Assembly: GCF_000497755.1 (NCBI RefSeq)
Contig: NZ_AYOD01000015.1
Location: 186,001 to 250,000, forward strand
From: Aliihoeflea sp. 2WW
GTDB taxonomy: Bacteria; Pseudomonadota; Alphaproteobacteria; Rhizobiales; Rhizobiaceae
Direction: 5' to 3'
Length of the DNA: 64,000 bases
The position numbers were made by a program, and so were the translations under genes. Below are positions 712 to 21,120 of the stretch, one piece after another. How positions within the stretch are numbered: the first letter of the stretch is position 1; the number at the start of each line of letters is the position of its first letter. The notes under the pieces were generated by a model. It made no database searches. It was not told where the DNA came from and saw nothing but the letters and a program-made list of their open reading frames with translations.

Positions 712-750
712 GATGATGATCCGCATCGATCGTTGGACGTATTCGCCGGT

Positions 751-904
751 CACCCCCCTCTGGCCTGCCGGCCATCTCCCCCTCAAGGGGGGAGATCAGT
801 CTCGTCATCGTCCCACTCGACATACAAATGTATTGGCGCAGCCGATTGCGCGCGTGATCTCCCCCCTTGAGGGGGAGATGCCCGGCAGGGCAGAGGGGGG
901 TGTG
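751..904. repeat. Intergenic palindromic repeat (copy A)
   Basis: Two arms (751-797 and 856-904) are near-perfect reverse complements, each beginning with a C-rich block, a GGCCTGCCGGCC-like core and an ATCTCCCCC-TCAA-GGGGGGAGAT hairpin. The 58-base centre is AT-richer. It fills most of the gap between phnC and phnE. Elements of this kind are frequent in Mesorhizobium-like genomes. No transposase or coding frame is associated with it. Confidence 0.8.
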
Positions 905-942
905 ACGGAGAACGGTCCTCTCCAAGCGAAGGACCCCACCCA

Positions 943-2690: not shown

Positions 2691-2758
2691 GATTGTCGCG
2701 GACGCTTCGCATTCTTGTCATGCGAATCGTCTAGGCGATGCACTTTCGGAGCTTTTGG

Positions 2759-3448: not shown

Positions 3449-3449
3449 C

Positions 3450-5155: not shown

Positions 5156-5156
5156 C

Positions 5157-5966
5157 CTATTCGTCAGGCGCCACGAACGCCCGCAGCAACTCGAACTGGC
5201 CCCGCGCCATCGCCCGCCCGTCGATGGTCCGCAGGCCGCGCGCACGGGCAGCGCCCAGAAATATCGTCTCCGCCGGCTCGGTAATGGCGTCGGCCGCGAT
5301 TGCGCCGGCGGGCAGCGAAGCGACCTGTTCAGGTGAGAATGCCGTGCCCGGCGCATAGTCCATGCCGAGCGGCGTTGCGTTGATCGCCATGTCGTAGCCG
5401 CCCAGATCGTCGGGCATGCCGCTGCTCACCTCGATCCCGGTTCCCGCCAGACGGCTCACCAGCGCATCAACCTCGTCGCCCGAGCGCGACCAGATCGCGA
5501 GCTTGCGCCCACCGCGTTGTGCGAATTCGAACGCGATCGCCGTCCCCGCCGCGCCCGCGCCCGCCAGCACCGCCGCCTTGCCGAACGGCTCGAATCCCGC
5601 ACCCCGCGCGCCATTCCAGAAACCCGCGCCGTCCGCCATGTCACCGAATAGGCGCCCGTCCGGGTTGCGGCGCACCGCGTTGACGCTTTCGAGCGCACGC
5701 GCGGTCGGCCCGGCTTCGTCGACCAGCTTGAGCAAGGCGCGTTTGTGCGGCAGCGTGGCGACGAAGCCGTCGCAGTTTTCCGCCTCCCGCACCATCGCCA
5801 CGAAACCATCGAGCGCGGCGACGCTGACCTCGAGCGGCACCATCACGCGGTCAATGCCATGTTCGGCGAAATAGGTGTTGAACAGCAACGGTGAGCGCAC
5901 CTGCGCGATCGGCGTTCCGATCATGAAGACGACCCGCGTGGCGGCCGTGACGATGCGTTGGCTCAT
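5157..5966 (-). CDS. Shikimate dehydrogenase-like oxidoreductase (AroE family)
   Basis: NAD(P)-dependent dehydrogenase of the shikimate/quinate dehydrogenase family, 269 residues. The catalytic pair is kept (Lys75 in TLPHK, Asp112 in GDMADGAGF) with Asn96 (SVNAV) and the dinucleotide loop GAGAAG at about 136-141. The usual Ser-x-Ser that grips the shikimate carboxylate is Val23-Arg-Ser25, so the first serine is lost and the substrate may differ. ATG 5966 is preferred to 6005 because GAGGAG precedes it closely. It is divergent from the GntR gene and borders an aromatic-catabolism island, so a catabolic role (quinate, shikimate or a relative) is more likely than biosynthesis. Confidence 0.8.
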   Translation of the reverse strand: MSQRIVTAATRVVFMIGTPIAQVRSPLLFNTYFAEHGIDRVMVPLEVSVAALDGFVAMVREAENCDGFVATLPHKRALLKLVDEAGPTARALESVNAVRRNPDGRLFGDMADGAGFWNGARGAGFEPFGKAAVLAGAGAAGTAIAFEFAQRGGRKLAIWSRSGDEVDALVSRLAGTGIEVSSGMPDDLGGYDMAINATPLGMDYAPGTAFSPEQVASLPAGAIAADAITEPAETIFLGAARARGLRTIDGRAMARGQFELLRAFVAPDE

Positions 5967-6058
5967 GAATGAATTCTCCTCTCCCGACTTGACGGCGCCA
6001 GCCATAATCCATAACAGGCAAAATATTGAAGATTTTTCGACGCGTTGGAGGAGTTTGC

Positions 6059-6718
6059 GTGTTCGGGAGGAAAAACTCGGATTCCGATACGGTCGTTCGA
6101 CTGCTCGCCGCGCAGGTGCGCCGCGACATCTCGATCGGCGTGCTCGCTCCCGACGCCAAGCTCAAGATCGACGAACTGCGCCAGCGCTATGGCGGCTCGG
6201 CCCATTCCTTCCGCGAAGCGCTGACCCAGCTCACCAGCGAAGGTCTCGTCGAGGCCAGCGCACAGCGCGGTTTTCGCGTCGCCTCCGCCACGCAGACCGA
6301 TCTCGAGGACATCACCCGCCTGCGCGCCGAGATCGAGACGCTCGGACTCGGCTGGGCCATCCGGCATGGCGACCTGCGCTGGGAAGGCGAGGTGCTCGCC
6401 GCCTTCCATACCTATGCCCGCCTCTGCGCTCAGGCCGATACAGACCGTTCCGCGCTCGCCATTGAATGGGACGAGGCCGGCCGCCAGTTTCATGCGTCGC
6501 TCGTTTCCGCCTGCCGCTCGCCGCGCCTGATCGAGTTCCAGGACCGCCTCCATACACAAAGCCGCCGCTTCCGCTACGCCGCGCTCATCGAGGGCCGGAT
6601 CGACCTTTCGGCCGAAACGCACGCCCTGCGCAATGTGGTCGAAGCGGCCATCGCCCGCAATGCAGACGGGGCCCGCGAGGCACTCTCGCAACACATTCTC
6701 GGCGTCCTCGGGCGCTGA
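6059..6718 (+). CDS. GntR-family transcriptional regulator (FCD type)
   Basis: DNA-binding regulator, 219 residues, with an N-terminal winged helix of about 70 residues (LLAAQVRRDISIGVL, LRQRYGGSAHSFREALTQL, GFRVAS) and a C-terminal helical FCD ligand domain containing DITRLRAEIETL and WDEAGRQFHASLV. I chose GTG 6059: GGAGGAG lies five bases upstream, while the TTG at 6026 has no such site. The 92-base gap to the divergent dehydrogenase gene should hold its operator. FCD regulators usually respond to organic acids, which fits control of the island that follows on the same strand. Confidence 0.88.
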   Translation: MFGRKNSDSDTVVRLLAAQVRRDISIGVLAPDAKLKIDELRQRYGGSAHSFREALTQLTSEGLVEASAQRGFRVASATQTDLEDITRLRAEIETLGLGWAIRHGDLRWEGEVLAAFHTYARLCAQADTDRSALAIEWDEAGRQFHASLVSACRSPRLIEFQDRLHTQSRRFRYAALIEGRIDLSAETHALRNVVEAAIARNADGAREALSQHILGVLGR

Positions 6719-6771
6719 AATCCGGCCGTCTCGGCCATTCGAAGAAAGCAACTGTCTCAGGGAGGAATAAC

Positions 6772-7785
6772 ATGCTTTCGATAACCCGCAGGACCTTCGG
6801 CGCACTTGCCGCCGCCACCATGCTGATGGGCGCCGGCGCCGCCAGCGCCGAGCCGGTCAAGATCGGCATCCTGTCCTTGACCTCGCATTCGCCGTCGATC
6901 ATCGCCGAGGGCAAGGGCTATTACGAGGAAGCAGGCCTCGAGGTCGAGTTCGTGCCGTTCCAGGCCGCCCAGCCCATGGCCGTGGCGATTGCGTCGGGTG
7001 ACGTCGATTTCGGCCTCACCGCCATGACCGCCGGCCTCGTCAGCCTCGCCGAGCGCGGTGCGGTCAAGATCATCGGCGGCGCCATGGCCGAGGCCGAGGG
7101 CGTCGAGGGCCACAAGATCCTCGTCTCCAAGGCCGCCCATGAAGCCGGCGTGACAACCCCTGCCGGCCTCGAAGGCAAGCGCTTCGGCATCACCACGGCC
7201 GGTTCGTCCTTCCACTACATGGCGCACAAGATCGCCGACGGCGAAGGCTTCGAGCGTTCGTCGATGGAGATGGTGCCGCTCAACGGCGTGCCCGCGGTCA
7301 TCGCCTCGCTGCGTTCGGGCCAGATCGACGCCTGGTCGATCCAGCCGAACATCGCAGACGGCCTCATCGCCAGCGGCGACGTCTTCGAGGTCGGCCGCAT
7401 CGACGACTATGTCGATACCTATCAGGTCACGACCCTGTTCACCTCGAACGAGCTCATCGCCAACAATCGCGAGCTCGTCGAGAGCTTCGTCGCCGCCTTC
7501 TCGAAGGGCGTCGCGGACTACAATGCAGCCTTCGTCGACAAGACCATGTCCGAAGACGAGAGCGGCGAGATGGTCGCGATGATCCACGAGTGGGTCTACA
7601 CGGACCGTCCGCTCGAGGACGCGGACGCGGCGATCCGCGCCGGCGCGATGCGCATGAACGAGGGCGCCAAGCTGAACCTCGCCAGCATCGAGGACCAGCT
7701 CGAATGGTTCAAGTCCGAGAACCTCGTTCCGCAGGATGCTTCGATCGAAAACCTGGTCGACACGAGCTTCGTCGAGACCTTCTGA
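6772..7785 (+). CDS. NitT/TauT-type ABC transporter substrate-binding protein
   Basis: Periplasmic binding protein of the SsuA/TauA/NMT1 class, 337 residues. The signal peptide (residues 1 to about 27) contains TRRTFGA, a twin-arginine-like motif, and ends at ASA. The mature start VKIGILSLTSHSPSIIAEGKG is typical of the class. ATG 6772 is set by CAGGGAGG at 6758-6765; the frame is open further upstream but overlaps the GntR gene. The ATPase and permease genes follow. The ligand is unknown; the surrounding genes suggest an aromatic or alicyclic acid. The ribosome binding site exactly matches the CCTCCCTG segment of the sRNA candidate near 60254. Confidence 0.9.
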   Translation: MLSITRRTFGALAAATMLMGAGAASAEPVKIGILSLTSHSPSIIAEGKGYYEEAGLEVEFVPFQAAQPMAVAIASGDVDFGLTAMTAGLVSLAERGAVKIIGGAMAEAEGVEGHKILVSKAAHEAGVTTPAGLEGKRFGITTAGSSFHYMAHKIADGEGFERSSMEMVPLNGVPAVIASLRSGQIDAWSIQPNIADGLIASGDVFEVGRIDDYVDTYQVTTLFTSNELIANNRELVESFVAAFSKGVADYNAAFVDKTMSEDESGEMVAMIHEWVYTDRPLEDADAAIRAGAMRMNEGAKLNLASIEDQLEWFKSENLVPQDASIENLVDTSFVETF

Positions 7786-7797
7786 CCTCCCAAGGCT

Positions 7798-7829
7798 GCC
7801 GGCTCCGGGCGTCCGTGCCCGGAGCCGGC
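7798..7829 (+). other. Perfect 13-bp hairpin between binding-protein and ATPase genes
   Basis: Arms 7798-7810 and 7817-7829 are exact reverse complements around a GTCCGT loop. No T-run follows, so it is not a classical terminator. It lies 12 bases after the binding-protein stop and may stabilise the upstream mRNA or reduce read-through, as hairpins at this position do in other importer operons. Confidence 0.7.
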
Positions 7830-7870
7830 TCGACCCGAGGAGGCGTTCTGCCCAACCCGAGGAGCCGATC

Positions 7871-8641
7871 ATGGATCTTGTGATCGACAACATCACGCAT
7901 CGCTACGGCCAGACCGACGTGCTCGAAAACATCAATTTCGAGCTCAAGAGCGGTGAGATCGTCTGCATCATCGGCCCGTCGGGCTGCGGCAAGTCCACGC
8001 TCCTGCGCTTCATCGGCGGGCTGGAGCGGCCGACCTCCGGCCGTGTCCTGATCGCCGGCGAGCCACCGGCCGGCTCACTCAATCCGCTGACTTACATCTT
8101 CCAGGATTTCGCGCTCCTTCCCTGGCGCACGGTCGAAGGCAATGTCAGCCTCGTGCTCGAGGATCACGGCATTCGCGGCGGCAAGGCCGAAGCCATCATC
8201 GAAGACGTGCTTCGCCGTACCAAGCTGTCGGATTTCCGCAAGGCGTTGCCGCGCCAGCTTTCGGGCGGCATGAAGCAGCGCGTGGCCATCGCCCGCGCGC
8301 TCTCGGTCAACCCGGCCGTCATGCTGATGGACGAGCCGCTTTCCGCGCTCGACAGCCAGACCCGCGAACTCCTCCTCGACGACCTCGTCGAGCTGTGGTC
8401 GCGCGAAAAATTCTCCGCCTGCTACGTCACCCACAACCTCGCCGAGGCCGTCCGGCTCGGCCACAAGATCATCGTCCTGTCGCGCCGTCCCGGCCGCATC
8501 CGACAGGTCGTCGAGATCGACATGCCGCTCGCCGAAAGGGCGGGGCGCCTCGCCGAGCTGGAAGAGACCCAGCGTCACCTGTGGAACCTGATGCGCGACG
8601 AAGCGCGCGCCGCCGACATGGAGTTGGCCGATGTCGCTTGA
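7871..8641 (+). CDS. NitT/TauT-type ABC transporter ATP-binding protein
   Basis: Cytoplasmic ATPase of the importer, 256 residues. Walker A is GPSGCGKS at 35-42, the Q-loop is in IFQDFALLPW, the signature is [15 protein letters not shown] and Walker B is VMLMDEPLSALD, with the switch histidine in YVTHNLAEA. The C-terminal half follows SsuB/TauB rather than PhnC. ATG 7871 gives the family N-terminus MDLVIDNITHRYG. The permease start lies inside its 3' end (11-base overlap), so the two are translated together. Confidence 0.93.
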   Translation: MDLVIDNITHRYGQTDVLENINFELKSGEIVCIIGPSGCGKSTLLRFIGGLERPTSGRVLIAGEPPAGSLNPLTYIFQDFALLPWRTVEGNVSLVLEDHGIRGGKAEAIIEDVLRRTKLSDFRKALPRQLSGGMKQRVAIARALSVNPAVMLMDEPLSALDSQTRELLLDDLVELWSREKFSACYVTHNLAEAVRLGHKIIVLSRRPGRIRQVVEIDMPLAERAGRLAELEETQRHLWNLMRDEARAADMELADVA

Positions 8642-9485
8642 CACCATAGACACGATCCACCCTGCCGAAGTCCCGCAGAAGAAGGTCATCGCGCCGGAAG
8701 GCGCCAAGCCCGTCCCGTTCCGCGGCGGCGGCTTCAAGACCCGCAAGTTCGGCTATGTCGGACCGCTGGTCTTCATCGTCATCATCGCGATCTGGGAGTT
8801 CGGCTCGCAGTCCGGCATCATCAGCCCGATCGCGCTGCCCGCCCCGTCGGAGGCCTTCGGCGCCATCCAGGACCTGTTCCGCACCGGCCAGATCTGGACC
8901 CATCTCCAGGCGAGCCTCTACCGCTTGTCGGTCGGCTGGTTCTTCGGCTCGATGCTGGGCGTGACGGTTGGGCTTGCGATCGGCCTCTTCTCGGTCGCCC
9001 GCGCCGGCCTCTCGCCCATCGTCTCGGCGCTCTTCCCGATTCCGAAGATCGCGCTCCTGCCGCTCTTCATCGTCTGGTTCGGCATCGGCGAAGGCTCCAA
9101 GGTCGCGACCATCCTGTTCGGCACCTTCTTCCCGACGGTCATCGCCACCTATGGCGGCGTCGACAATGTCGACCGCAATTTGATCCGCATGGGCCAGTCC
9201 TTCGGCCTGTCCTGGTTGTCGATCGTGCGCAAGATCATCATCCCCGGCGCGCTGCCGGCGATCCTGTCGGGCTTCCGCATCTCCGCCTCGATCGCGATCG
9301 TGCTGCTCGTCGCGGCCGAGATGATCGGCGCGCAATACGGCATCGGCGCCTACATCCTGATGGCCGGCGCGATCTTCGCGACCGACCAGCTCATCGCCGG
9401 CGTCGCGATGCTTTCTATCCTCGGCCTCACCATCGGCTGGCTGATCGGCAAGGCCGAGCAGTATTTTCTCAACTGGCGCACCTGA
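8631..9485 (+). CDS. NitT/TauT-type ABC transporter permease
   Basis: Membrane subunit, 284 residues, of the SsuC/TauC class. A polar N-terminal stretch of about 40 residues precedes the first hydrophobic segment (GPLVFIVIIAIWEF). The characteristic FPIPKIALLPLFIVWFGIGE segment and an EAA loop (RMGQSFGLSWLSIVRKIIIPGALP) are present. It overlaps the ATPase gene by 11 bases and is followed after 10 bases by the FAD oxidoreductase gene, so transport and catabolism appear to be on one transcript. Confidence 0.92.
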   Translation: MSLDTIDTIHPAEVPQKKVIAPEGAKPVPFRGGGFKTRKFGYVGPLVFIVIIAIWEFGSQSGIISPIALPAPSEAFGAIQDLFRTGQIWTHLQASLYRLSVGWFFGSMLGVTVGLAIGLFSVARAGLSPIVSALFPIPKIALLPLFIVWFGIGEGSKVATILFGTFFPTVIATYGGVDNVDRNLIRMGQSFGLSWLSIVRKIIIPGALPAILSGFRISASIAIVLLVAAEMIGAQYGIGAYILMAGAIFATDQLIAGVAMLSILGLTIGWLIGKAEQYFLNWRT

Positions 9486-9495
9486 CGGACCTGAC

Positions 9496-10767
9496 ATGAC
9501 CAAGCGAGTGGAAGCCGATTACGACGTCGTCGTGTGCGGCGGCGGGGCGGCGGGCGTTGCCGCCGCCATCGGCGCGGCGAAGGCGGGCGCGAAGGTGTGC
9601 CTCGTCGAGAAATACGGCTTTCTGGGCGGCGCGGCGACGACCTCGCAGGTCTACGCCTATTGCGGCCTCTTCCAGCAGGGCCGCGAGCCGGTGAAAGCCG
9701 TCGGCGGTGTTGGCGAGGAAGTCGTCGACGAGTTGCGCAGGCACGGGCTCGACGGCGAAGCCTTCCGCTCGGAGACGACCGGAAATTGGATCGTCCTCCT
9801 CGACGGCGAAGTCCTCAAATTCGCGCTCGACAATCTCGTCCGCCGATACGGCATCGACGTCAGGCTCCACACGCGTGTCGCCTCGGTCGCCCGCACGGCG
9901 GACCGGCTCGAGGCCGTTACGCTCGCCGGCATGGGCGGGCGCAGCCGCGTCGTCGCCGAGGCCTTCGTCGACGCTTCGGGCGACGCCAATCTCGCCATGC
10001 TCGCCGGCATTCCGTTCCGCACCGGCGACGCCGAAGGCAAGCTGCAGGCGCTCACCATGCCGATCCGCGTCGGCGGCATCGCGCCCGATCTCGACATCGA
10101 CCGCAAGGCGCTGCAGGCGACCATCGCGCGCTACAATCAGGATGGCGCGCATCCCATCCAGCGAACGGACGGCGGCATCATCATCCGCCTGCCGCTGTCG
10201 CACGACATGTGGTGGATGACCGTAGACGTCGCCCTGCCGGACCTCTCCTCCGAAAGCTTCACCAGGGCCGAGATGGAAGCGCGCGCCCGCGCCAACGACT
10301 ATGTCGCAATGCTGAAGCGCGACATGCCAGGCTTCGAGCGCGCTTATCTCGTCGCCACCGGCCCCCAGATCGGCGTGCGCGAAACGCGCCATCCCGCCGC
10401 GCGCTACGAAATGACCGGCGAAGACGTGGTCTCCGGTCGCCTGCGCGAGGACGGCATCGCCCGCGCGGCCTGGCCGATCGAACTTCACGGCGAAGCGGGC
10501 AAGCCGAGCTACACGTCGATCGGCGGCAAGGGTTATTGCCACGTCCCCTACGATTCGATCCGCGCCAAGGGCCTCGACAACCTTTGGTATGGCGGCCGCG
10601 TCATCGGCGCCGACCCGCATGCCTATGGCTCGATCCGCGTCATGGGCACGGCCTTCGCCACCGGCCAGGCGGCCGGCGTCGCGGCGGCCGACCATGTCGA
10701 TGGCGATCACCGCAACGATGCCCGCAGCGTCCAGGCGCGCCTCGCCGAACAGGGCGCGCTCGTCTAG
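9496..10767 (+). CDS. FAD-dependent oxidoreductase of unknown substrate
   Basis: A 423-residue flavoprotein with an N-terminal Rossmann fold: VVVCGGGAAGVAAAIGAAKA at about 11-30 and the ribose-binding acid in VCLVEKYG. The next conserved segment GFLGGAATTSQV and the C-terminal SIRVMGTAFATGQAAGVAA (second flavin contact) fit the FAD_oxidored (PF12831-like) group. It lies between importer genes and the LigM-like demethylase with only 10 bases to the permease gene, so it is almost certainly part of the same pathway. I cannot name the reaction; oxidation or aromatisation of a ring acid, or a partner role to the demethylase, are possibilities. Confidence 0.8.
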   Translation: MTKRVEADYDVVVCGGGAAGVAAAIGAAKAGAKVCLVEKYGFLGGAATTSQVYAYCGLFQQGREPVKAVGGVGEEVVDELRRHGLDGEAFRSETTGNWIVLLDGEVLKFALDNLVRRYGIDVRLHTRVASVARTADRLEAVTLAGMGGRSRVVAEAFVDASGDANLAMLAGIPFRTGDAEGKLQALTMPIRVGGIAPDLDIDRKALQATIARYNQDGAHPIQRTDGGIIIRLPLSHDMWWMTVDVALPDLSSESFTRAEMEARARANDYVAMLKRDMPGFERAYLVATGPQIGVRETRHPAARYEMTGEDVVSGRLREDGIARAAWPIELHGEAGKPSYTSIGGKGYCHVPYDSIRAKGLDNLWYGGRVIGADPHAYGSIRVMGTAFATGQAAGVAAADHVDGDHRNDARSVQARLAEQGALV

Positions 10768-10858
10768 CGCGTTATGCCGGCAGGCCCGTTTCGAATGTGA
10801 CAGCCACACCCTTCGCAAGGGATACCTCTCCGACGTTTTGGTTAGGGAGGAAAGACCA

Positions 10859-12259
10859 ATGGGCGCGCGCAATCTCGAAGACGTGCTGCGGCAGAGCGGC
10901 GACACGGTCGGCCTTCTGCGCAATTCGAAGATCGGCATGTATGTCTATCCGGTCGTCGCCGCCGAGTTCACCAACTGGCGCGACGAACAGCGCGCCTGGC
11001 GCGACAGCGCGGTGCTCTTCGACCAGTCGCACCACATGGCCGAGCTGATGGTGGAAGGCCCGGATGCCGGCGCCTTCCTCGAAAGCCTGTCGATCAACTC
11101 CTTCAAGGGCTTCTCCGTCGACAAGGCGAAGCACTACGTGCCGGTCGGTCCGTCCGGTCACGTCATCGGCGACGTCATCCTCTTCCACCTCGACGAGAAT
11201 CAGTATCTGCTCGTCGGCCGCGCGCCGACCGTCAACTGGGTCGAGTACAATGCCTCGCTCGGCAAGCACGACGTCACGGTCACCCGCGACGACCGCTCGC
11301 CCTCGCGCCCCGATGGCAAGAAAGTCGACCGGCGCCACTACCGTTTCCAGATCCAGGGCCCGAACGCCACCGCGATCCTCGAAAAGCTGAATGGAGGGCC
11401 GATCCCCGAGATCAAGTTCTTCAACATGGACCGCATCACCATCGCCGGCCGCAAGGTGCGTGCGCTGCGCCACGGCATGGCCGGCGCGCCGGGGCTGGAA
11501 ATCTGGGGGCCGTACGAAGAGAAGGACGAGATCCAGGCCGCCATCATCGAGGCCGGCAAGGGCCATGACCTCTACCAGGTCGGCAGCCGCGCCTATTCGA
11601 CCAACACGCTCGAATCCGGCTGGATTCCCTCGCCCCTGCCCGCCATCTATTCCGGCGACGAGATGCGCGCCTATCGCGAATGGCTGCCCGCCAATGGCTA
11701 CGAGGCGACCGGATCGATCGGCGGCTCCTACGTCTCTGACGATATCGAAGACTACTACACCACGCCATACGAGCTCGGTTACGGCTTCTACGTGAAGTTC
11801 GACCACGACTTCGTCGGTCGCGCGGCGCTGGAGAAGATGGACGCCAAGGCGCAGCGCAAGAAGGTCACCTTCGAGTGGAACGATGAGGATGTGATGAAGA
11901 TCATCCATTCGAGCTTCCGCAACGGCGAGGAGAACTACAAGTGGATCGACCTGCCGCAGCCGAACTACGCCTCCTCCTCCTTCGACAGGGTTGAAAAGGA
12001 CGGCAAGCTCGTCGGCCTGTCCATGTTCAACGGCTATTCCTTCAATGAGCGCGCCATGCTTTCGCTCGGCATGGTCGACCAGAGCGTGAATGTCGGCGAC
12101 GTGCTGACGCTCGTCTGGGGCGAGCCCGATGGCGGCACCGGCAAGACCTCGACGGAGCGCCATAAACAGGCTGAAATCCGTGTCCGCGTCTCGCCCGTCC
12201 CCTATGCCCGCGAGGCGCGCGAAAACTACGTCGATAGCTGGCGCACGCGGGCGAGCTGA
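10859..12259 (+). CDS. ligM: LigM-like tetrahydrofolate-dependent aromatic O-demethylase (GcvT family)
   Basis: A 466-residue aminomethyltransferase-fold protein that closely resembles, from memory, LigM of Sphingobium SYK-6, which moves the methyl group of vanillate or 3-O-methylgallate to tetrahydrofolate. Shared landmarks include LLRNSKIGMYVYPVVAAEF, AVLFDQSHHM, ALRHGMAGAPGLEIWGPYE, NTLESGWIPSPLPAIYSGD and KFDHDFVGRAAL. ATG 10859 follows TAGGGAGG by a normal distance; the open frame upstream overlaps the FAD gene. Length matches LigM (about 470), not the shorter GcvT (about 370). Genes recycling methyl-tetrahydrofolate (metF, ligH) are not visible in the window. The exact methoxy substrate is inference. 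Confidence 0.82.
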   Translation: MGARNLEDVLRQSGDTVGLLRNSKIGMYVYPVVAAEFTNWRDEQRAWRDSAVLFDQSHHMAELMVEGPDAGAFLESLSINSFKGFSVDKAKHYVPVGPSGHVIGDVILFHLDENQYLLVGRAPTVNWVEYNASLGKHDVTVTRDDRSPSRPDGKKVDRRHYRFQIQGPNATAILEKLNGGPIPEIKFFNMDRITIAGRKVRALRHGMAGAPGLEIWGPYEEKDEIQAAIIEAGKGHDLYQVGSRAYSTNTLESGWIPSPLPAIYSGDEMRAYREWLPANGYEATGSIGGSYVSDDIEDYYTTPYELGYGFYVKFDHDFVGRAALEKMDAKAQRKKVTFEWNDEDVMKIIHSSFRNGEENYKWIDLPQPNYASSSFDRVEKDGKLVGLSMFNGYSFNERAMLSLGMVDQSVNVGDVLTLVWGEPDGGTGKTSTERHKQAEIRVRVSPVPYAREARENYVDSWRTRAS

Positions 12260-12358
12260 TCGCGGGCACACAACGTCCTGTAGGCAAAGCTTATGCCGCC
12301 GGCCTGCCTTTCGATTGGCGGTTGCAGACCTTCCCCGATACGCCGAAACTGGGGTCCG

Positions 12359-12379
12359 GTGGCCGCGCCTCGCGGCCGG
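12359..12379 (+). other. GC-rich hairpin ahead of a binding-protein ribosome site
   Basis: GGCCGCG (12361-12367) and CGCGGCC (12371-12377) form a 7-bp stem around CCT, ending seven bases before the AGGGAGG site of the next gene. It could mark a processed 5' end or modulate initiation. Function is not shown. Confidence 0.4.
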
Positions 12380-12398
12380 CCCAAGGGAGGAAAAAAGA

Positions 12399-13574: not shown

Positions 13575-13602
13575 AGCGATCACGGACCGGGCCGGCGCGT
13601 AG

Positions 13603-14463
13603 ATGAGCAACCTCGTCATCGTCCTCTTCGACGGGTTCGCCTTCGGGATGCTTTTGTTCGTCCTGTCGGTGGGCCTGTCGGTGACGCTGGGCATGATGAA
13701 TTTCATCAACCTGGCGCACGGCGCGTTCGGCATGCTCGGCGGCTACGTCACCGTGCTCGTCATGCGCCAACTCGGCCTTCCCTTCATCGTCGCTCTCCCC
13801 GCAGCCTTTCTGGCGGCCGCGGCGTTGAGCATCGTCATCGAACGCACGCTTTTTCGCCGGCTCTACCGGGCCGGCGAACTCAACCAGGTCCTGTTCACCA
13901 TCGGCATCGTCTTCGTGGCGACGGCGGTCGCGACCTATTTCTTCGGCACGGTGCAGCAGCCGATCCGCCTGCCCGCCTGGCTGCGCGGCACGGTCGAGAT
14001 CGGCGGCATCCGCTTCGGCACCTATCGTCTCTTCCTCATCGCAATCGCGCTCGCCATCACCGCGCTCCTCGTCTTCGGCATCGAGCGCACGCGCCTCGGC
14101 GCACAGATCCGCGCCGCCGTCGACAACCAGCGCGTGGCGCAGGGCCTCGGCCTCAATGTCGAGCAGATCTTCGGCATCACCTTCGCGCTCGGCAGCGGCC
14201 TCGCCGGCCTCGGGGGCGCGCTGGCGATCGAGATCGTCGGCCTCGACCCGTCCTTCGCCTTCCACTACCTCGTCTACGTCCTGATCGTGGTCTCGGTCGG
14301 CGGCCTCGGCTCCATCACCGGCTCCTTCGTCGGCGCCGCATTGCTCGGCATCGGCGACGTCGCCGGCAAGTATTTCGTCCCCGAGATCGGCTCCTTCCTG
14401 ATCTACCTGATCCTCGTCGCCGTCCTCTTGTGGCGGCCACTTGGCCTGTTCGGGAGGCGGTGA
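13603..14463 (+). CDS. livH: Branched-chain-type ABC transporter permease (LivH-like)
   Basis: Membrane permease, 286 residues, rich in hydrophobic segments. The diagnostic VGLSVTLGMMNFINLAHGAFGM region lies near the N-terminus, and the EAA-equivalent loop ERTRLGAQIRAAVDN with the later LVYVLIVVSVGGLGSITGSF follow as in LivH proteins. It starts 28 bases after the binding-protein stop. The gene is separated from livM by 172 bases that hold a perfect 26-bp inverted repeat. Confidence 0.92.
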   Translation: MSNLVIVLFDGFAFGMLLFVLSVGLSVTLGMMNFINLAHGAFGMLGGYVTVLVMRQLGLPFIVALPAAFLAAAALSIVIERTLFRRLYRAGELNQVLFTIGIVFVATAVATYFFGTVQQPIRLPAWLRGTVEIGGIRFGTYRLFLIAIALAITALLVFGIERTRLGAQIRAAVDNQRVAQGLGLNVEQIFGITFALGSGLAGLGGALAIEIVGLDPSFAFHYLVYVLIVVSVGGLGSITGSFVGAALLGIGDVAGKYFVPEIGSFLIYLILVAVLLWRPLGLFGRR

Positions 14464-14493
14464 GGGAGATGGCATCGTCAGCGCGCTTCATAT

Positions 14494-14583
14494 CCCCACC
14501 CCATACCCCTCCCCACAAGGGGGAGGGGGATTCTGAGACGATGACGCCCCCCTCCCACTTGTGGGGAGGGGTATGGGGTGGGG
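14494..14583. repeat. Intergenic palindromic repeat with perfect 26-bp arms (copy B)
   Basis: Arms 14494-14519 and 14558-14583 are exact reverse complements, built from CCCC/CCCT blocks, with a 38-base centre that can itself pair in part. The element lies inside the importer operon, between livH and livM. It has no coding frame and no T-run that would make it an intrinsic terminator. The same style of element is common in Mesorhizobium-like genomes. Confidence 0.85.
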
Positions 14584-14635
14584 GTACTCGTAAGGCTCGA
14601 CGCTGCCGGCTTCCTTCTCCCACAGGCAGCCACCC

Positions 14636-15622
14636 ATGACGCCCCTCGCCCCTACCGCCGCCCCGCATGCCTGGCTCGCCCGCCAGAGCCGCTGGTCCTG
14701 GTTCGAAGTCGTCTTCTGGCTGGCGACGCTCCTGCCCTTCTTCCTGTTCCCCACCTACCTGACCCTGGCGAGCCAGGTCGCCATCGCCGCCCTGTTCGCG
14801 ATCTCCGTCGACCTGATCCTCGGCTATGCCGGCATCGTGACGCTCGGCCATGCGCTGTTCTTCGGTCTCGGCGCCTATACGGTCGGGCTTCTCAGCGCCC
14901 GGCTCGGCTGGGGTGAGCCGATCTCCGGCCTGCTGTTGGCCGGCGCGGTCGCGGGCCTCGTCGGCTTCGTGGCGAGTTACCTGATCGTACGTGTCCAGCA
15001 CCTCGCCCTGATCATGGTCACGCTCGGCCTCGGCTTCCTCGCCTACGAACTGGCAAACGCGATGACATGGTTGACCGGCGGGACGGACGGCCTGCGCGGT
15101 GTCAGCATGTGGCAGATCGTCGGCACTTTCCGATTCGATCTTTGGGGCTACACCGCCTATACCTACTCGCTGATCGTGCTCTTCCTCGGCTTCCTCGTCA
15201 GCCGCACCATCGTCAACTCCTCCTTCGGCCTCGCGCTGCGCGGCATCCGCGAGAACGTCACCCGCATGCCGGCGATCGGCTCGGATCATTCCTGGCACCT
15301 GCGCAAGATCTACACGATCTCGGCCGCGCTGGCGGGCGTCGCCGGCGGGCTGCTGACGCAGACGACCAACACGGTCGGCCTCGACGTCCTGAGCTTCCAG
15401 CGCTCGGCCGACGTGGTGGTCATGCTTATTCTCGGCGGCACCGGCCGGCTCTACGGCGCCATTCTCGGTGCGATCATCTTCCTCGTCGCCCGCGACCAGC
15501 TTGCCGGCGTCAATCCGCAATACTGGTACTTCTGGATCGGCCTCCTCTTGATGGTCGTCGTGCTCTTCATGCCGAAGGGCATTTTGGGCTTCCTGGCGAA
15601 GCTGACGGGAAGGCGCGACTGA
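14636..15622 (+). CDS. livM: Branched-chain-type ABC transporter permease (LivM-like)
   Basis: Second membrane permease, 328 residues. It shows the LivM signature ISVDLILGYAGIVTLGHALFFGLGAY near residue 55-80, the loop ALRGIRENVTRMPAIGSD and the C-terminal MLILGGTGRLYGAILGA. The stop overlaps the livG start by one base (TGATG), giving coupled translation. The ribosome site (AGG, about 11 bases upstream) is weak, perhaps because the palindrome just upstream affects initiation. Confidence 0.92.
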   Translation: MTPLAPTAAPHAWLARQSRWSWFEVVFWLATLLPFFLFPTYLTLASQVAIAALFAISVDLILGYAGIVTLGHALFFGLGAYTVGLLSARLGWGEPISGLLLAGAVAGLVGFVASYLIVRVQHLALIMVTLGLGFLAYELANAMTWLTGGTDGLRGVSMWQIVGTFRFDLWGYTAYTYSLIVLFLGFLVSRTIVNSSFGLALRGIRENVTRMPAIGSDHSWHLRKIYTISAALAGVAGGLLTQTTNTVGLDVLSFQRSADVVVMLILGGTGRLYGAILGAIIFLVARDQLAGVNPQYWYFWIGLLLMVVVLFMPKGILGFLAKLTGRRD

Positions 15623-16386
15623 TGGCGGACCAACAGCCGATCATGCTGCGGACAAATGCGCTGCGTAAGAATTTCGGCGCATTGCAGGTCGCACGCGACG
15701 TCTCGCTGACGCTGCCGCGCGGCTGCCGCTATGCGTTGATCGGCCCCAACGGTGCCGGCAAGACGACGCTGATCAATCTCATCACCGGCCGCCTCAAGCC
15801 GGATGCGGGCACCATCGAGCTTGCCGGCGACGACGTCACGGCCACGCCCGCCGCAGCCCGGGTGCGCAAGGGCCTCGCCCGCACCTTCCAGATCAACACC
15901 CTCTTTCCCGAGCTGACGCCGATCGAGGCAGTCACGCTCGCTGTCAGCGAACGCGAGGCCGTCGCGGGCCAGTTCTGGCGCCGCCTGTCGACACAGACCG
16001 AGGCGATCGACGAGGCGTTCGAAATCCTGACGCGCCTTCGCCTCGCCGACGTCGCGACCCAGCCGACGCGCACCCTGGCCTATGGCCAGCAGCGCCTGCT
16101 GGAAATCGCGCTCGCGCTCGCCACGCGCCCCAAGGTCCTGCTCCTCGACGAGCCTGCCGCCGGCGTCCCGAAGGACGAGAGCGCGATGCTCTTTTCGGTC
16201 ATCGCCGGCCTGCCGGAGGACATTTCGGTGCTCTTCATCGAGCACGACATGAATATCGTCTTCCGCTTCGCCACCCGCATCATCGTCCTGGTCAGCGGCG
16301 GCGTGCTCGTCGACAACACGACGGCGAACATCCGCACCGATGCGCGCGTGCGCGACGTCTATCTGGGGCACGGCGCCCATGGCTGA
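15622..16386 (+). CDS. livG: Branched-chain-type ABC transporter ATPase (LivG-like)
   Basis: Cytoplasmic ATPase, 254 residues. Walker A GPNGAGKT lies near residue 43, the FQINTLFPELTPIEAV segment covers the Q-loop, the signature is the atypical LAYGQQRLLEIALALA of LivG-type proteins, and Walker B is VLLLDEPAAGVP. The switch histidine is in FIEHDMNIVF. ATG 15622 overlaps the livM stop; the frame is open upstream but that part lies within livM. The livF start lies within its 3' end. Confidence 0.93.
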   Translation: MADQQPIMLRTNALRKNFGALQVARDVSLTLPRGCRYALIGPNGAGKTTLINLITGRLKPDAGTIELAGDDVTATPAAARVRKGLARTFQINTLFPELTPIEAVTLAVSEREAVAGQFWRRLSTQTEAIDEAFEILTRLRLADVATQPTRTLAYGQQRLLEIALALATRPKVLLLDEPAAGVPKDESAMLFSVIAGLPEDISVLFIEHDMNIVFRFATRIIVLVSGGVLVDNTTANIRTDARVRDVYLGHGAHG

Positions 16387-17116
16387 GCCGATTCTCGAAT
16401 TCCGGGACGTCAGTGCCGGCTATGGGTCCGGCATCGTGCTCGACCATGTCTCCTTCGCGGTGCCGGAGGGCGGCAGCCTTGCGCTTCTCGGGCGCAACGG
16501 CGTCGGCAAGACGACGATGATCCTGACCGCAATGGGTTTCCTGCCGCTTGCCCGCGGCAGCATCCATTTCCGCGGCCAGGACGTCTCGCGCCTGCCCTCG
16601 CACAAGCGCGCCCGGCTCGGTCTCGGCTGGGTGCCGCAGGAGCGTGACATCTTCCCCTCGCTCTCCGTCGAGGAGAACCTGACCGTCGCCGCCCGCTCCG
16701 GCCGCTGGACGCTCGACGCCATCTGGGAACTCTTCCCCCGCCTCAAGGAACGGCGCGCCAACATGGGCAACCAGCTCTCCGGCGGCGAGCAGCAGATGCT
16801 CACCATCGGCCGCACACTGATGACAAACCCCGCCGTTCTCCTGCTCGACGAACCACTGGAGGGCCTCGCGCCGATCATCGTCGAGGAACTCACCGCCGCC
16901 ATCCGCGCCATGGCGCAGAATGAGGGCATGGCGCTCGTCCTCGTCGAACAGCACGCCGACGTCGCGCTCGCGCTGACGGAGGACGCCCTCGTCATCGAAC
17001 GCGGCACGGTCGCCCATCGCGCGAAGTCGCAGGCGCTCCTCGCCGACCGCGCGACGCTCGACCGCTATGTCGGCATGAATCTCGATGTCGACGACGCGGC
17101 ATCCCGAAAGGCATGA
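16379..17116 (+). CDS. livF: Branched-chain-type ABC transporter ATPase (LivF-like)
   Basis: Second ATPase of the importer, 245 residues. Walker A GRNGVGKT at about 38-45, the segment GWVPQERDIFPSLSVEENL, signature LSGGEQQMLTIGRTL, Walker B VLLLDEPLEGLAP and the switch segment LVEQHADVAL are all intact. It overlaps livG by eight bases and its stop overlaps the dioxygenase start (ATGA), which ties the importer directly to the ring-cleavage gene. Confidence 0.93.
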   Translation: MAEPILEFRDVSAGYGSGIVLDHVSFAVPEGGSLALLGRNGVGKTTMILTAMGFLPLARGSIHFRGQDVSRLPSHKRARLGLGWVPQERDIFPSLSVEENLTVAARSGRWTLDAIWELFPRLKERRANMGNQLSGGEQQMLTIGRTLMTNPAVLLLDEPLEGLAPIIVEELTAAIRAMAQNEGMALVLVEQHADVALALTEDALVIERGTVAHRAKSQALLADRATLDRYVGMNLDVDDAASRKA

Positions 17117-18087
17117 ACATGAGTGAACCCTGCTTCGACGTCGCCCATCTCGGCCATGTCGAACTCCTGACCGACAAATTCGAGGAAAGCCTCGATTTCT
17201 TCGTCAATGTCTACGGCCTGACGGAAGCCGGCCGCGAAGGCGACTCCGTCTATCTGCGCGCTTGGGACGACTACGAGTTCCATTCCCTCAAGCTGACGGC
17301 GTCGAACACCACCGGTATGGCCCACTGCGCCTACCGCACCTCGTCACAGGCCGCGCTCGAGCGACGGGTCGCCGTCATCGAGAAGATGGGCCTCGGCATC
17401 GGCTGGACCGACGGCGACCTCGGCCACGGCCGCTCCTACCGCTTCAACAGTCCCGACGGACACGTCTTCGAACTCTACTGGGACACGCACAAATACCAGG
17501 CGCCTGAAGCCGAACGTCCCGCCCTCAAGAACGTCGCGCAACGCTTCCATGGCCGCGGCGCCGCGCCGCGCCGCATCGACCATTTCAATCTTCTGGCGAC
17601 CGACGTGTCGAAGATCCGCGACTTCATGGTCGAGGCGCTCGGCAGCCGCGTGACCGAGATGATCCAGCTCGACAATGGCCGCATTGGCGGCTGCTGGTTC
17701 ACGGTCAACAACAAGGGCTACGACATGGCCTGCACGGAAGATCATTCCGGCACGCGCGGCCGCTTCCACCACCTGACCTATGCCGCCGACCACCGCGACG
17801 ACATCTTGCGGGCCGCCGACATCTTCCTCGAAAACGGCGTCTTCATCGAGACCGGCCCGCACCGCCACGCCATCCAGGGCACCTATTTCCTCTATGTCTA
17901 CGAGCCGGCCGGCAACCGCATCGAGATCGCCAATGCCGGAGCCCGGCTCGTCCTCGACCCCGACTGGCAGACGATCGTGTGGACCGAGGCCGAGCGGAAG
18001 AAGGGCCAGGCCTGGGGCCTGAAGACGATCGAATCCTTCCACACCCACGGCACGCCGCCCGTCGCCAAAGGAGGCACGAACCCATGA
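17113..18087 (+). CDS. Type I (VOC) extradiol ring-cleavage dioxygenase
   Basis: A 324-residue protein with two vicinal-oxygen-chelate modules, like catechol 2,3-dioxygenase (XylE, about 307). The N-terminal module covers about 10-130. The C-terminal module carries the iron triad: His157 in RRIDHFN, His220 in RFHHLTYA and Glu271 in GNRIEIAN, at nearly the XylE spacing (153, 214, 265). Tyr261 and His250 or His252 are likely active-site partners. ATG 17113 overlaps the livF stop; ATG 17119 is an alternative. The next genes are galB and galD, so a gallate-like trihydroxy ring is a plausible substrate, though known gallate dioxygenases belong to the unrelated LigB family. Family sure, substrate inferred. 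Confidence 0.87.
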   Translation: MNMSEPCFDVAHLGHVELLTDKFEESLDFFVNVYGLTEAGREGDSVYLRAWDDYEFHSLKLTASNTTGMAHCAYRTSSQAALERRVAVIEKMGLGIGWTDGDLGHGRSYRFNSPDGHVFELYWDTHKYQAPEAERPALKNVAQRFHGRGAAPRRIDHFNLLATDVSKIRDFMVEALGSRVTEMIQLDNGRIGGCWFTVNNKGYDMACTEDHSGTRGRFHHLTYAADHRDDILRAADIFLENGVFIETGPHRHAIQGTYFLYVYEPAGNRIEIANAGARLVLDPDWQTIVWTEAERKKGQAWGLKTIESFHTHGTPPVAKGGTNP

Positions 18088-18809
18088 GCACCGCCCTCGT
18101 CATCAGCGCCCACTCGGCCGATTTCGTCTGGCGCTGCGGCGGCGCGATCGCGCTCCACGCCGAAAAGGGCATCGACGTCACCATCGTCTGCCTCTCCTAT
18201 GGCGAGCGCGGCGAAAGTGCGAAACTCTGGAAGAACGCCGGTGCCACGCTCGAAGGCGTCAAGGCCGCCCGGCGCAAGGAGGCCGAAGCCGCCGCCGGCG
18301 CGCTCGGCGCAGCCGACATCCAGTTCTTCGATTGCGGCGACTATCCGCTCGAACTCGACCGCGATGCGAAATTCCGCCTCGTGGACGTCATCCGCAAGGT
18401 CCAGCCGGACTTCATGCTGTCGCACTCGATGGACGATCCCTACAACACCGACCATCCCTACGCGACGCGCGTCGCGCTCGAATGCCGGATGATCGCGCAG
18501 GCCTGGGGCCATAATCCCGGCGAGAAGGTGCTCGGCGCGCCGCAGCTTTATCTGTTCGAGCCGCACCAGACCGAGCAATGCGCCTGGAAGCCCGACACGA
18601 TCCTCGACATCACGCCGGTCTGGGAAAAGAAGAAGGCCGCCATCGAGTGCATGGAAGGCCAGCAGCACCTTTGGGACTACTACACAAACGTCGCCGAAAA
18701 CCGCGCCAACCAGTTCCGGCGCAACTCCGGCGGCCAGGCCGGCGGACGCGAGGCGAAATATGCCGAAGGCTTCCAGTCGATCTTCCCGCGTACCGTGGAC
18801 GCGTTGTGA
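18084..18809 (+). CDS. galB: 4-oxalomesaconate hydratase (GalB, PIG-L family)
   Basis: Metal-dependent hydratase of the PIG-L/LmbE fold, 241 residues, adding water to 4-oxalomesaconate to give 4-carboxy-4-hydroxy-2-oxoadipate in gallate breakdown. The family's usual AHPDD is here AHSADFVW (His10, Asp13), a GalB feature, followed by LSYGERGESAKLWK and the second metal site HSMDDPYNTDHP (His114, Asp123, His124). ATG 18084 overlaps the dioxygenase stop. This GalB class differs from LigJ of Sphingobium, which is an amidohydrolase. An aldolase (galC or ligK) to finish the pathway is not in the window. Confidence 0.87.
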   Translation: MSTALVISAHSADFVWRCGGAIALHAEKGIDVTIVCLSYGERGESAKLWKNAGATLEGVKAARRKEAEAAAGALGAADIQFFDCGDYPLELDRDAKFRLVDVIRKVQPDFMLSHSMDDPYNTDHPYATRVALECRMIAQAWGHNPGEKVLGAPQLYLFEPHQTEQCAWKPDTILDITPVWEKKKAAIECMEGQQHLWDYYTNVAENRANQFRRNSGGQAGGREAKYAEGFQSIFPRTVDAL

Positions 18810-19864
18810 TGACGAACGGTATTCGCGCCATGTGGATGCGCGGCGGCACGTCGAAGGGCGGCTATTTCCTCAAGGACGACCTGCCTCCTGACGCAGCCGC
18901 ACGCGATGCGTTTCTCCTGCGCGTCATGGGCTCGCCCGACCCGCGCCAGATCGACGGTCTCGGCGGTGCCGACCCGCTCACCTCCAAGGTCGCAATCGTC
19001 TCGAAATCCGATCGGCCGGATGTCGATGTCGACTATCTCTTCCTGCAGGTTTTTGTCGACAAACCCATCGTCACCGACGCGCAGAACTGCGGCAACATCC
19101 TCGCCGGCATCGGCCCCTTCGCCATCGAGCGCGGCCTCGTCGCGGCCGGAGACGGCGAGACGCGGGTGCGCATCTTCATGGAAAACACCGGCCAGATCGC
19201 CGTCGCGACCGTCTGGACGCCGGATGGCCACGTCACTTATGCCGGCGACGCCCGCATCGACGGCGTCCCCGGCACGGCGGCGCCCATTCCCATCGTCTTC
19301 AAGGACACCGCCGGTTCATCCTGTGGCGCGCTCCTGCCGACCGGCAACGATGTCGACACGATCGACGGCGTTGACGTCACCTTGATCGACAACGGCATGC
19401 CCTGCGTCGTCATGGCGGCCGCCGATTTCGGCCTCACCGGCACGGAAACACCGGCCGATCTCAACGCCGATGCCGAACTGAAGGCGCGCATCGAAGCGAT
19501 CCGGCTGAAGGCCGGGCCATTGATGAATCTCGACGACGTCACGGAAAAATCCGTGCCAAAGATGACGCTCGTCAGCGCCGCGCAGGCCGGCGGCGCCGTC
19601 TCCACCCGCACCTTCATCCCCCATGTCTGCCATCAGGCGATCGGCGTCCTGGGTGCCGTCAGCGTCGCCACCGCCTGCCTGCTCGAAGCCGGCCCGGCGG
19701 CGAGGATCGCGAAGCTCCAGCGCGCGCGCGACATGCTCATTTCCATCGAGCACCCAACCGGCGAATTCACCGTCACGGCGAGCCTCGACGACGACGGCAA
19801 TCTGGCCGAAGCGGGCGTCCTTCGAACCGCGCGCAAGCTCTTCGACGGATTGGTCTACGACTGA
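18809..19864 (+). CDS. galD: 4-oxalomesaconate tautomerase (GalD, PrpF family)
   Basis: Keto-enol tautomerase of the PrpF/AcnD-accessory fold, 351 residues, converting the ring-cleavage product into the form used by GalB. Family landmarks are the N-terminal IRAMWMRGGTSKGGYFLKDD with the RGGTSKG loop, QIDGLGGADPLTSKVAIVS, QNCGNILAGIGPFA and HPTGEFTV. ATG 18809 overlaps the galB stop (TGATG). LigU of Sphingobium is the same fold, so the gene supports a gallate or protocatechuate-4,5-type lower pathway. Other PrpF-family isomerases exist, but the direct link to galB makes this the best call. Confidence 0.86.
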   Translation: MTNGIRAMWMRGGTSKGGYFLKDDLPPDAAARDAFLLRVMGSPDPRQIDGLGGADPLTSKVAIVSKSDRPDVDVDYLFLQVFVDKPIVTDAQNCGNILAGIGPFAIERGLVAAGDGETRVRIFMENTGQIAVATVWTPDGHVTYAGDARIDGVPGTAAPIPIVFKDTAGSSCGALLPTGNDVDTIDGVDVTLIDNGMPCVVMAAADFGLTGTETPADLNADAELKARIEAIRLKAGPLMNLDDVTEKSVPKMTLVSAAQAGGAVSTRTFIPHVCHQAIGVLGAVSVATACLLEAGPAARIAKLQRARDMLISIEHPTGEFTVTASLDDDGNLAEAGVLRTARKLFDGLVYD

Positions 19865-19905
19865 GCCACTTCCCAAACGGCACGGCACCTGCCTAAATCC
19901 GCGCC

Positions 19906-21120
19906 ATGTCGTCCTACCCAAACCTGCGCCATGTCCGGCTTTTCCAGTTCGCCGCCGAAACCAACTCGCTGACCCGCGCGGCCGAAGCCGTTCGCGTGTC
20001 GCAACCCGCCGCCTCGCAGGCCATCGCCAAGCTCGAAGGCCAGTTCGGCGGTGCGCTTTTCGAGCGGCGAGGCTCCGGCGTGTTCGTCACCGAGCGCGGC
20101 CGGCTTCTGACCGAGCGCGCCGCGCGCGCCCTGTCGCTGTTGCGCGAAGCCAACGAGCGCCTTGCGCGCCACGCCTCCATCGGCCGCGCCTTGGCGATCG
20201 ACCTCCTGGAAACCCACGCAACCATCGCACATCTGCGTGCCGTCGCCGCCTTCGCCTCGACCAGCAGCTTCACCGCCGCCGCCCGCCGCCTGGAACAGGC
20301 CGAGCCCTCGGTCCAGCGCGCCGCGCGCGAGCTGGAACGCATCGGCACGGTCCCGCTCTTCGAAGGTCGGCAGAACTCGATCCGCCTGACTGCCACCGGC
20401 ACCATGCTCGCACGCGCGGCCAGCCTCGTGCTGCGCGAACTCGAAAACGCATTGGAAGACGCCCGCGAACTCGACGGCCGCTTCACCGGCCGCGTCGTCA
20501 TCGGCACCCTGCCCTTCGCCCGCACGCGCATCGTGCCGGAGGCGATCGTCGCATGGACCAACCGCCGCCCCGCCGCGTCCATCGAAATCGTCGATGGTTC
20601 CTACGACACGCTCGCCCATGCGCTCGCCATCGGCGAGATCGACATGCTGGTCGGCGCCCTGCGCCCGGCTTCCGAAGCAAAGGGCATCGCGCAGGAGGCG
20701 CTCTTCGACGATCCGCTGTCGGTCGTGGTCCGCGCCGGTCACCCGCTCGCCACGCGGCCCGAACTCAAATTCGAAGACCTTCGCGCCTATCCATGGATAT
20801 TGCCGCGCAAGGGCACGCCCACCCGCGCGATCTTCGACGAATTGTCGGCGCGGCACGGCCTCGCGCAATGCGGCAGCGGCTTGGTCGAGACCGGCTCGCT
20901 GGTCGCGCTGCGCGGTCTCCTCGTCAATTCCGACCGGCTGACGCTGATGTCGCGCCGCCAGATCGCCTACGAGGAGAACTCCGGCCTTCTGGTGCCGCTG
21001 CAACTCGCTTTGCCAGCCACCGCGCGCCCGATCGGCATTGCCACCCGGCAGGGCTGGAAGCCGACCACTTTGCAGGCCGAACTCCTCGACGCCCTACGCG
21101 TCGCCGCAAAGTCGCTTTAG
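19906..21120 (+). CDS. LysR-family regulator with two tandem helix-turn-helix domains
   Basis: A 404-residue LysR-type protein, about 100 residues longer than usual. The extra length is a second DNA-binding domain: one at residues 5-64 (VRLFQFAAETNSLTRAAEAV, then SQPAASQAIAKLE) and another at 105-165 (LRAVAAFASTSSFTAAARRL, then AEPSVQRAARELE). The periplasmic-binding-like effector domain spans about 195-395. One continuous frame encodes all three parts, with no sign of a frameshift. It lies 41 bases after galD on the same strand and is probably the local regulator of the aromatic genes. Its stop overlaps that of the convergent ABC-F gene. Confidence 0.88.
   Translation: MSSYPNLRHVRLFQFAAETNSLTRAAEAVRVSQPAASQAIAKLEGQFGGALFERRGSGVFVTERGRLLTERAARALSLLREANERLARHASIGRALAIDLLETHATIAHLRAVAAFASTSSFTAAARRLEQAEPSVQRAARELERIGTVPLFEGRQNSIRLTATGTMLARAASLVLRELENALEDARELDGRFTGRVVIGTLPFARTRIVPEAIVAWTNRRPAASIEIVDGSYDTLAHALAIGEIDMLVGALRPASEAKGIAQEALFDDPLSVVVRAGHPLATRPELKFEDLRAYPWILPRKGTPTRAIFDELSARHGLAQCGSGLVETGSLVALRGLLVNSDRLTLMSRRQIAYEENSGLLVPLQLALPATARPIGIATRQGWKPTTLQAELLDALRVAAKSL

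Follow-up and report, generated by a model that had tools for sequence, protein, structure and literature searches.

Which enzyme opens the aromatic ring in a gene cluster that encodes an O-demethylase, LigM, and two enzymes of gallate breakdown, GalB and GalD, in a genome without any match to the LigB dioxygenase family? The question is raised by a stretch of 64,000 nucleotides (the window, in what follows) from Aliihoeflea sp. 2WW, namely positions 186,001-250,000 of the forward strand of contig NZ_AYOD01000015.1 (assembly GCF_000497755.1); the genome is 99.95% complete. The first-pass annotation of this DNA had described positions 5157-21120 as a single block for a candidate undescribed pathway acting on a methoxylated aromatic acid. 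We consider it probable that the right-hand part of this block, module B (10743-21120), imports and degrades such an acid, likeliest 3-O-methylgallate, through gallate, with a VOC-superfamily dioxygenase taking the place of GalA. This VOC protein is likely a widespread type I gallate dioxygenase.

Module B and the route it may encode

The gene content and coordinates first given for 5157-21120 were confirmed by family and solved-structure searches. The features of module B are as follows.

10859..12259, forward strand: LigM, tetrahydrofolate-dependent vanillate/3-O-methylgallate O-demethylase (NF047885, 722.9 bits, cut-off 580)
12399..13574, forward strand: Liv-type substrate-binding protein (Peripla_BP_6, 232 bits)
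13603..17116, forward strand: LivH, LivM, LivG and LivF importer genes (reading of translations)
17113..18087, forward strand: VOC (type I) extradiol dioxygenase, proposed gallate dioxygenase (type I extradiol models matched full length)
18084..18809, forward strand: GalB, 4-oxalomesaconate hydratase, PIG-L family (solved structure 5cgz)
18806..19864, forward strand, start at 18806 or 18809: GalD/LigU, 4-oxalomesaconate tautomerase (NF033377, 541.5 bits, cut-off 440)
19906..21120, forward strand: LysR regulator with two HTH_1 stretches and a PcaQ-like C-terminal part (Pfam; NCBIfam)

LigM passes NF047885, an NCBIfam equivalog model, and falls below the cut-off of the DesA model (679.5 bits against 800); its match to the solved proteins 5x1i/5tl4 (about 622 bits) covers residues 4-464. 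It is predicted to demethylate vanillate/3-O-methylgallate with tetrahydrofolate. GalB aligns with 5cgz over residues 1-239 of 241 (337 bits, E 5e-100), the next solved match reaching 43.5 bits only, and GalD matches the solved LigU 6p3j with 536.7 bits. The LysR protein scores 224 bits on the PcaQ model, below the cut-off of 303.8. It is 404 amino acids long; annotated LysR proteins near VOC genes are also long (391-428 amino acids) on plasmids of Pantoea, two Agrobacterium species and Thioclava, and that of Roseomonas, at 329 amino acids, is not.

In the proposed route, LigM would pass the methyl group of 3-O-methylgallate to tetrahydrofolate, yielding gallate. The VOC protein, as an Fe(II) type I extradiol dioxygenase, would open gallate to 4-oxalomesaconate, thereby replacing a LigB-type GalA/DesB; GalD would tautomerise the ring-cleavage product and GalB would then hydrate it; and a GalC aldolase encoded elsewhere would split the product into pyruvate and oxaloacetate. 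This presumed order of steps follows general pathway chemistry, with the Liv importer as the putative entry point of the methoxylated acid and the LysR protein as the probable regulator. Syringate is possibly a substrate too, with help from a LigM paralogue elsewhere in the genome (contig C12; 725.6 bits on the LigM model, and 698 on the DesA model, whose cut-off is 800).

Much of what had been said of the pathway at the outset is upheld. The family membership of these proteins supports a methoxylated aromatic acid route leading from LigM to GalB/GalD, and the presence of an unusual VOC dioxygenase in it is likewise supported. The aldolase and the C1-recycling genes, said to be located elsewhere, were indeed found outside the window: there are two LigK/GalC aldolase genes (about 395 and 392 bits, cut-off 304.5), one on C1 and one on C15, some 7 kb beyond the window's left edge, and a methylenetetrahydrofolate reductase. 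The LigB family (PF02900) has no match in the host genome, by a search whose controls matched in 4 of 14 named genomes, and the VOC protein has no other relative there. From its gene linkage and the lack of a LigB-type alternative, the two grounds for this step, we infer that the VOC protein converts gallate to 4-oxalomesaconate.

The grouping of module B is more than chance, because its closest relatives found (L024, L025 and L026, with VOC proteins 96-97% identical) all keep the order LigM-LivKHMGF-VOC-GalB-GalD-LysR whole, and because 18 of the 76 GalD genes in the genome sample described below have a VOC gene within 10 kb. A similar five-gene importer lies beside VOC/galB on two Agrobacterium plasmids. 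The first-pass annotation had suggested looking for the gene order of the entire block in other genomes; it recurs for module B, and module A, the left-hand part, is missing from L025.

The presumed ring-cleaving protein across genomes

The Pfam families of the VOC protein are of glyoxalase/dioxygenase types; it does not belong to LigB (PF02900), the family of GalA/DesB. It passes TIGR03211, the model for catechol 2,3-dioxygenase, with 321.5 bits against 320.2. Since the margin is only 1.3 bits, automatic annotation likely misnames it. Homologues from Agrobacterium (296.8 bits) and Pantoea (291.5 bits) fall below this cut-off, and one from Thermus (332.2 bits) lies above it.

An alignment of 88 VOC proteins (from the window, 7 plasmid loci and 80 genome loci, with the 46% homologue L021 set aside and four solved proteins added) keeps the iron ligands H157, H220 and E271 in 88/88, a 2-His-1-Glu site as in VOC type I enzymes. 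N159, W195, H252 and Y261 are also invariant. The position of His200 in homoprotocatechuate 2,3-dioxygenase (HPCD), which we take to be a catalytic residue (the roles of HPCD residues are presumed throughout), is held by Tyr203 in 88/88 and by Tyr in 9wgj; His stands there in 3lm4, 3hpv, 1f1r and L021. Three HPCD arginine positions also differ, with Thr at Arg243 (86/88), Lys at Arg292 (85/88) and Gly at Arg293 (88/88). The predicted structure of the window's protein (mean pLDDT 80.8, pTM 0.83, residues 298-324 poor) is closest in fold to AphC and LapB, with a TM-score of about 0.8, and the closest solved sequence is 9wgj (387 bits).

Gene linkage of the VOC protein with gal genes is strong. 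A scan of genome contigs gave 338 stretches encoding VOC relatives, and genes were counted at at least 40% identity in the best 80. GalB was present in 61 of these loci, GalC in 59 and GalD in 58; at least one of the three occurred in 62/80, and all three in 54/80. Of these 62 loci, 41 have a gal gene within 100 bp of VOC, and in 61 the nearest gal gene shares the strand of VOC. LigM was found in 28 loci and the LigM-paralogue type in 7, which together make 33 loci. Plasmid homologues at about 69-73% identity tell the same story, with galB, galC and galD accompanying VOC in Pantoea, Rhizobium, two Agrobacterium species and Thioclava. For example, the Pantoea plasmid places VOC with an aromatic-acid transporter of the major facilitator superfamily, LysR, galB, galC and galD, and Agrobacterium pAt carries a Liv importer, galB, VOC, galC and galD next to a gene whose annotation reads tannase/feruloyl esterase family and whose protein matched no NCBIfam model.

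The same association appears at the level of whole genomes. In a 249-genome sample of the host's order, full-length VOC matches at 64% identity or more occurred in 37 genomes, the next full-length matches standing at 46% and about 30%; this count omits G170, where the gene is in two pieces, and G195 has further fragments. GalD was over its cut-off in 61/249 genomes, specifically in 29 of the 37 VOC genomes versus 32 of the 212 others (Fisher p 3.8e-14, kinship between genomes ignored). No LigB match of at least 144 bits, the threshold used for counting, was found in 25 of the 37 VOC genomes. Within 10 kb of the 76 GalD genes, VOC alone was found in 15 cases, LigB alone in 13, both in 3 and neither in 45. 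When 50 of the 80 locus genomes were searched, 23 had no PF02900 match at all, and of these, 19 carry gal genes at their VOC locus.

Further genes near VOC were clustered by blastp, and one member per cluster was identified. Several are of C1 or methyl-transfer type. A divergent methylenetetrahydrofolate-reductase-like gene (solved match 7xg9, 181.8 bits) occurs in 15/80 loci (L042:8045-9016 and 14 more), 13 of them with LigM; the member tested matched no Pfam family. A PurU-like gene occurs in 5/80, 4 of them with LigM. A MetE-like gene (PF01717, NF005085) is present in 18/80 loci (L062, L068, L071, L076 and 14 more), 17 of them without LigM; in 16 of the 18 it lies no more than 176 bp upstream of VOC. 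Its product is a candidate for an alternative methyl-accepting enzyme, although lineage may account for the pattern, since Bosea is named in 10 of the 18 record titles. As a separate observation, a DUF1932 oxidoreductase gene lies in 54/80 VOC loci (L014, L016, L018, L020, L029 and others).

There is also a wider claim, to which we give about an even chance. It holds that the VOC protein represents an undescribed and widespread class of VOC-superfamily gallate dioxygenase, which arose independently of LigB-type GalA/DesB, works with Tyr for the catalytic His and, in many Hyphomicrobiales as well as in certain other Proteobacteria, replaces GalA. Where a cluster has no LigM, as is mostly the case in Bosea, the enzyme would be paired with a MetE-like methyltransferase, maybe a further kind of O-demethylase.

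Alternative readings and the neighbouring cassette

Several observations weigh against a gallate dioxygenase. Neither VOC nor LigB lies near 45 of the 76 GalD genes, and 18 of the 61 GalD genomes have neither this VOC protein nor a LigB match of at least 144 bits. Conversely, no GalD above cut-off is found in 8 of the 37 VOC genomes (VOC identity 64-66%). Among the 80 loci, 7 also hold a LigB-type gene; no gal gene is visible in 18, and 11 have neither gal genes nor LigM (contig ends truncate some loci). Completeness is not stated for the 50 genomes searched for PF02900, several of which are metagenome-assembled, and a missing LigB match may in some cases reflect a gap. With Tyr where HPCD has His200, the chemistry of the enzyme could be weakened or altered. 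Lastly, the host genome also encodes a LigI homologue and another GalB/GalC pair, which leave room for a route via 2-pyrone-4,6-dicarboxylate.

This last point belongs to the alternative that survives best, which we judge unlikely. Here the VOC protein would cleave 3-O-methylgallate to 2-pyrone-4,6-dicarboxylate (or the methyl ester), the LigI homologue would hydrolyse this to 4-oxalomesaconate, and LigM would serve vanillate or a side branch. The genes in question form a second locus on C1 (L023:4581-9852), in which a TAXI-type importer protein and the LigI homologue (319.9 bits against the solved 4d8l) accompany the GalB homologue and GalC, possibly for import and breakdown of 2-pyrone-4,6-dicarboxylate. 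LigI also occurs in 7/80 VOC loci, as against 33/80 for LigM or its paralogue type, and module B itself contains LigM without LigI.

Slightly less probable is a reading of the VOC protein as a protocatechuate 4,5-dioxygenase, with LigM making protocatechuate from vanillate, and an unidentified dehydrogenase and LigI leading on to 4-oxalomesaconate. Besides the LigI homologue in the host genome, it draws on a Thermus oshimai plasmid (L019), where a 64% VOC homologue is found with genes for PobA, an aldehyde dehydrogenase, a DUF1932 oxidoreductase and DUF6282, PIG-L and aldolase proteins; this may be the route's counterpart for protocatechuate. Because this homologue sits with PobA, and because of the 8 VOC genomes without GalD over cut-off, the wider VOC family may also cleave protocatechuate, a further point against confining it to gallate. 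In the host, however, pobA-pcaHGB encodes an intradiol route, so that protocatechuate breakdown can do without the VOC enzyme. The pobA fragment, seemingly truncated where the locus ends, scores 525.1 on one model, whose cut-off is 538.7, and 488.3 on a second, whose cut-off is 351. Nor was a DUF1932 oxidoreductase found in the host genome, in a search of which all controls were silent.

That the VOC protein is a catechol 2,3-dioxygenase acting on a substrate unrelated to the adjoining gal genes is very improbable: the TIGR03211 scores of the window's protein and its Thermus homologue and the fold similarity to AphC and LapB speak for it, whereas the Agrobacterium and Pantoea scores, the Tyr in 88/88 where the compared catechol dioxygenases have the catalytic His, the linkage with galB/C/D across genera and the lack of catechol lower-pathway genes in the block all speak against it.

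The gallate reading concerns module B; the remainder of the block, module A, is a separable cassette. Its features are as follows.

5157..5966, reverse strand: shikimate-dehydrogenase-like protein (SDH family), distinct from canonical AroE (Shikimate_dh_N in Pfam; 161.9 bits to 4k28, the best solved match)
6059..6718, forward strand: GntR/FCD regulator (Pfam GntR and FCD; start GTG 6059 or TTG 6026)
6772..7785, forward strand: NMT1/SsuA-type substrate-binding protein of an ATP-binding cassette (ABC) importer (Pfam NMT1, 90.5 bits)
7871..8641, forward strand: ABC ATPase (translation reading; 99-100% matches in L024 and L026)
8631..9485, forward strand: ABC permease (translation reading; 97-98% matches in L024 and L026)
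9496..10767, forward strand: flavin adenine dinucleotide (FAD)-dependent oxidoreductase, PF12831 (Pfam, 310.7 bits)
5161..10742, no strand: module A, the 5.6-kb cassette missing at the matching site of L025 (blastn)

The single block proposed earlier is in fact two modules, A (5161-10742) and B, because 5161-10742 is absent at the matching L025 site and the cassette is found without module B elsewhere. In L025, positions 3-3795 correspond to window 1369-5160 and positions 3803-7521 to window 10743-14464, so that the flanks stand 7 bases apart (blastn), by either loss in L025 or gain in the others. On a Pseudooceanicola algae plasmid, the AroE-like gene is divergent from GntR, which is followed by the substrate-binding protein, ATPase, permease and FAD oxidoreductase, and the 19 kb examined contain no LigM or VOC gene. 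One operon over 5157-21120 is rejected on these grounds; the two modules may still be transcribed jointly in the window.

Nor is it supported that both importers and the FAD oxidoreductase fall into one pathway, as had been suggested, given that the first importer and the FAD gene belong to the separable cassette. Among five relatives searched, the FAD protein has a 98-99% match in two, the genomes of L024 and L026, and weak matches only in the remaining three, among them that of L025. Of the 80 VOC loci, 2 contain it at a minimum of 40% identity, and the 10-kb flank may hide it in others. It was set aside as a member of the aromatic route on this linkage. It has no close solved relative, its PDB matches being weak and chiefly over the FAD-binding part. 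On other replicons it adjoins or is near an AroE-like gene, and in Agrobacterium salinitolerans the two genes are adjacent. The AroE-like protein is under the cut-off of all 17 NCBIfam models matched (AroE/YdiB at best 139 bits against 252). Module A perhaps imports and oxidises some other small acid. Further left, window 1-5155 holds putative phosphonate-type genes (PhnE-like permeases, PhnM-like and PhnN-like), from reading translations alone.

Comparison with known systems

If the gallate reading of module B is true, the products of many genes now labelled 'catechol 2,3-dioxygenase' or 'VOC family protein' would open gallate, and searches for the LigB type only would miss gallate and syringate degraders. 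Unrelated folds would serve one ring-cleavage step, and lignin engineering would gain an alternative gallate dioxygenase. The protein would also offer a natural His-to-Tyr change at the position where the engineered HPCD variants H200N, H200E, H200Q and H200C were crystallised, according to their structure titles.

In passages of PMC12314914, PMC4250580, PMC3962378 and PMC8431788, the dioxygenases given for gallate, for 3-O-methylgallate and for 4,5-cleavage of protocatechuate are of the LigB type, and the part consulted of the AromaDeg substrate list for VOC dioxygenases does not include gallate (PMC4250580). No VOC-type gallate dioxygenase was found in the literature searched, which mostly excludes subscription journals, where one may be in print. 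Among characterised systems, the gal genes of Pseudomonas putida KT2440 resemble module B in their adjacent GalB/GalD types, in having GalC in the genome and in the logic of gallate to 4-oxalomesaconate (PMC12314914). Module B differs from them in having the VOC protein instead of the LigB-type GalA, a Liv importer beside it, an unlinked GalC and LigM within the module. The syringate-vanillate system of SYK-6 and N. aromaticivorans (DesA, LigM, DesB, DesZ, LigAB, LigU, LigJ, LigK) shares the LigM-type O-demethylase and the LigU-type isomerase, whereas the Aliihoeflea genome lacks a LigB-family dioxygenase (DesB, DesZ, LigAB) and its hydratase is of the GalB type. LigJ belongs to another family than GalB.

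On the side of the enzyme, AphC (7q2a), 3lm4, LapB (3hpv) and HPCD share the VOC fold and the 2-His-1-Glu site with the window's protein. The second-sphere residues W195, H252 and Y261 are common to the window's protein and all three compared type I enzymes, and N159 is shared with 3lm4 and HPCD; unlike HPCD, it has Tyr203 for His200 and replacements at Arg243, Arg292 and Arg293. PDB 9wgj, deposited as a catechol 1,2-dioxygenase, is the closest solved sequence and has Tyr at the same position, but differs from the family at many residues kept in at least 97% of members. As for the pathway, which had been called undescribed, LigM, GalD, GalB and GalC perform known 3-O-methylgallate/gallate steps by their family assignments, and the substitution of the ring-cleaving enzyme looks new. 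Set beside the established path from 3-O-methylgallate and gallate to 4-oxalomesaconate, module B departs from it at a single point, the enzyme that would open the ring.

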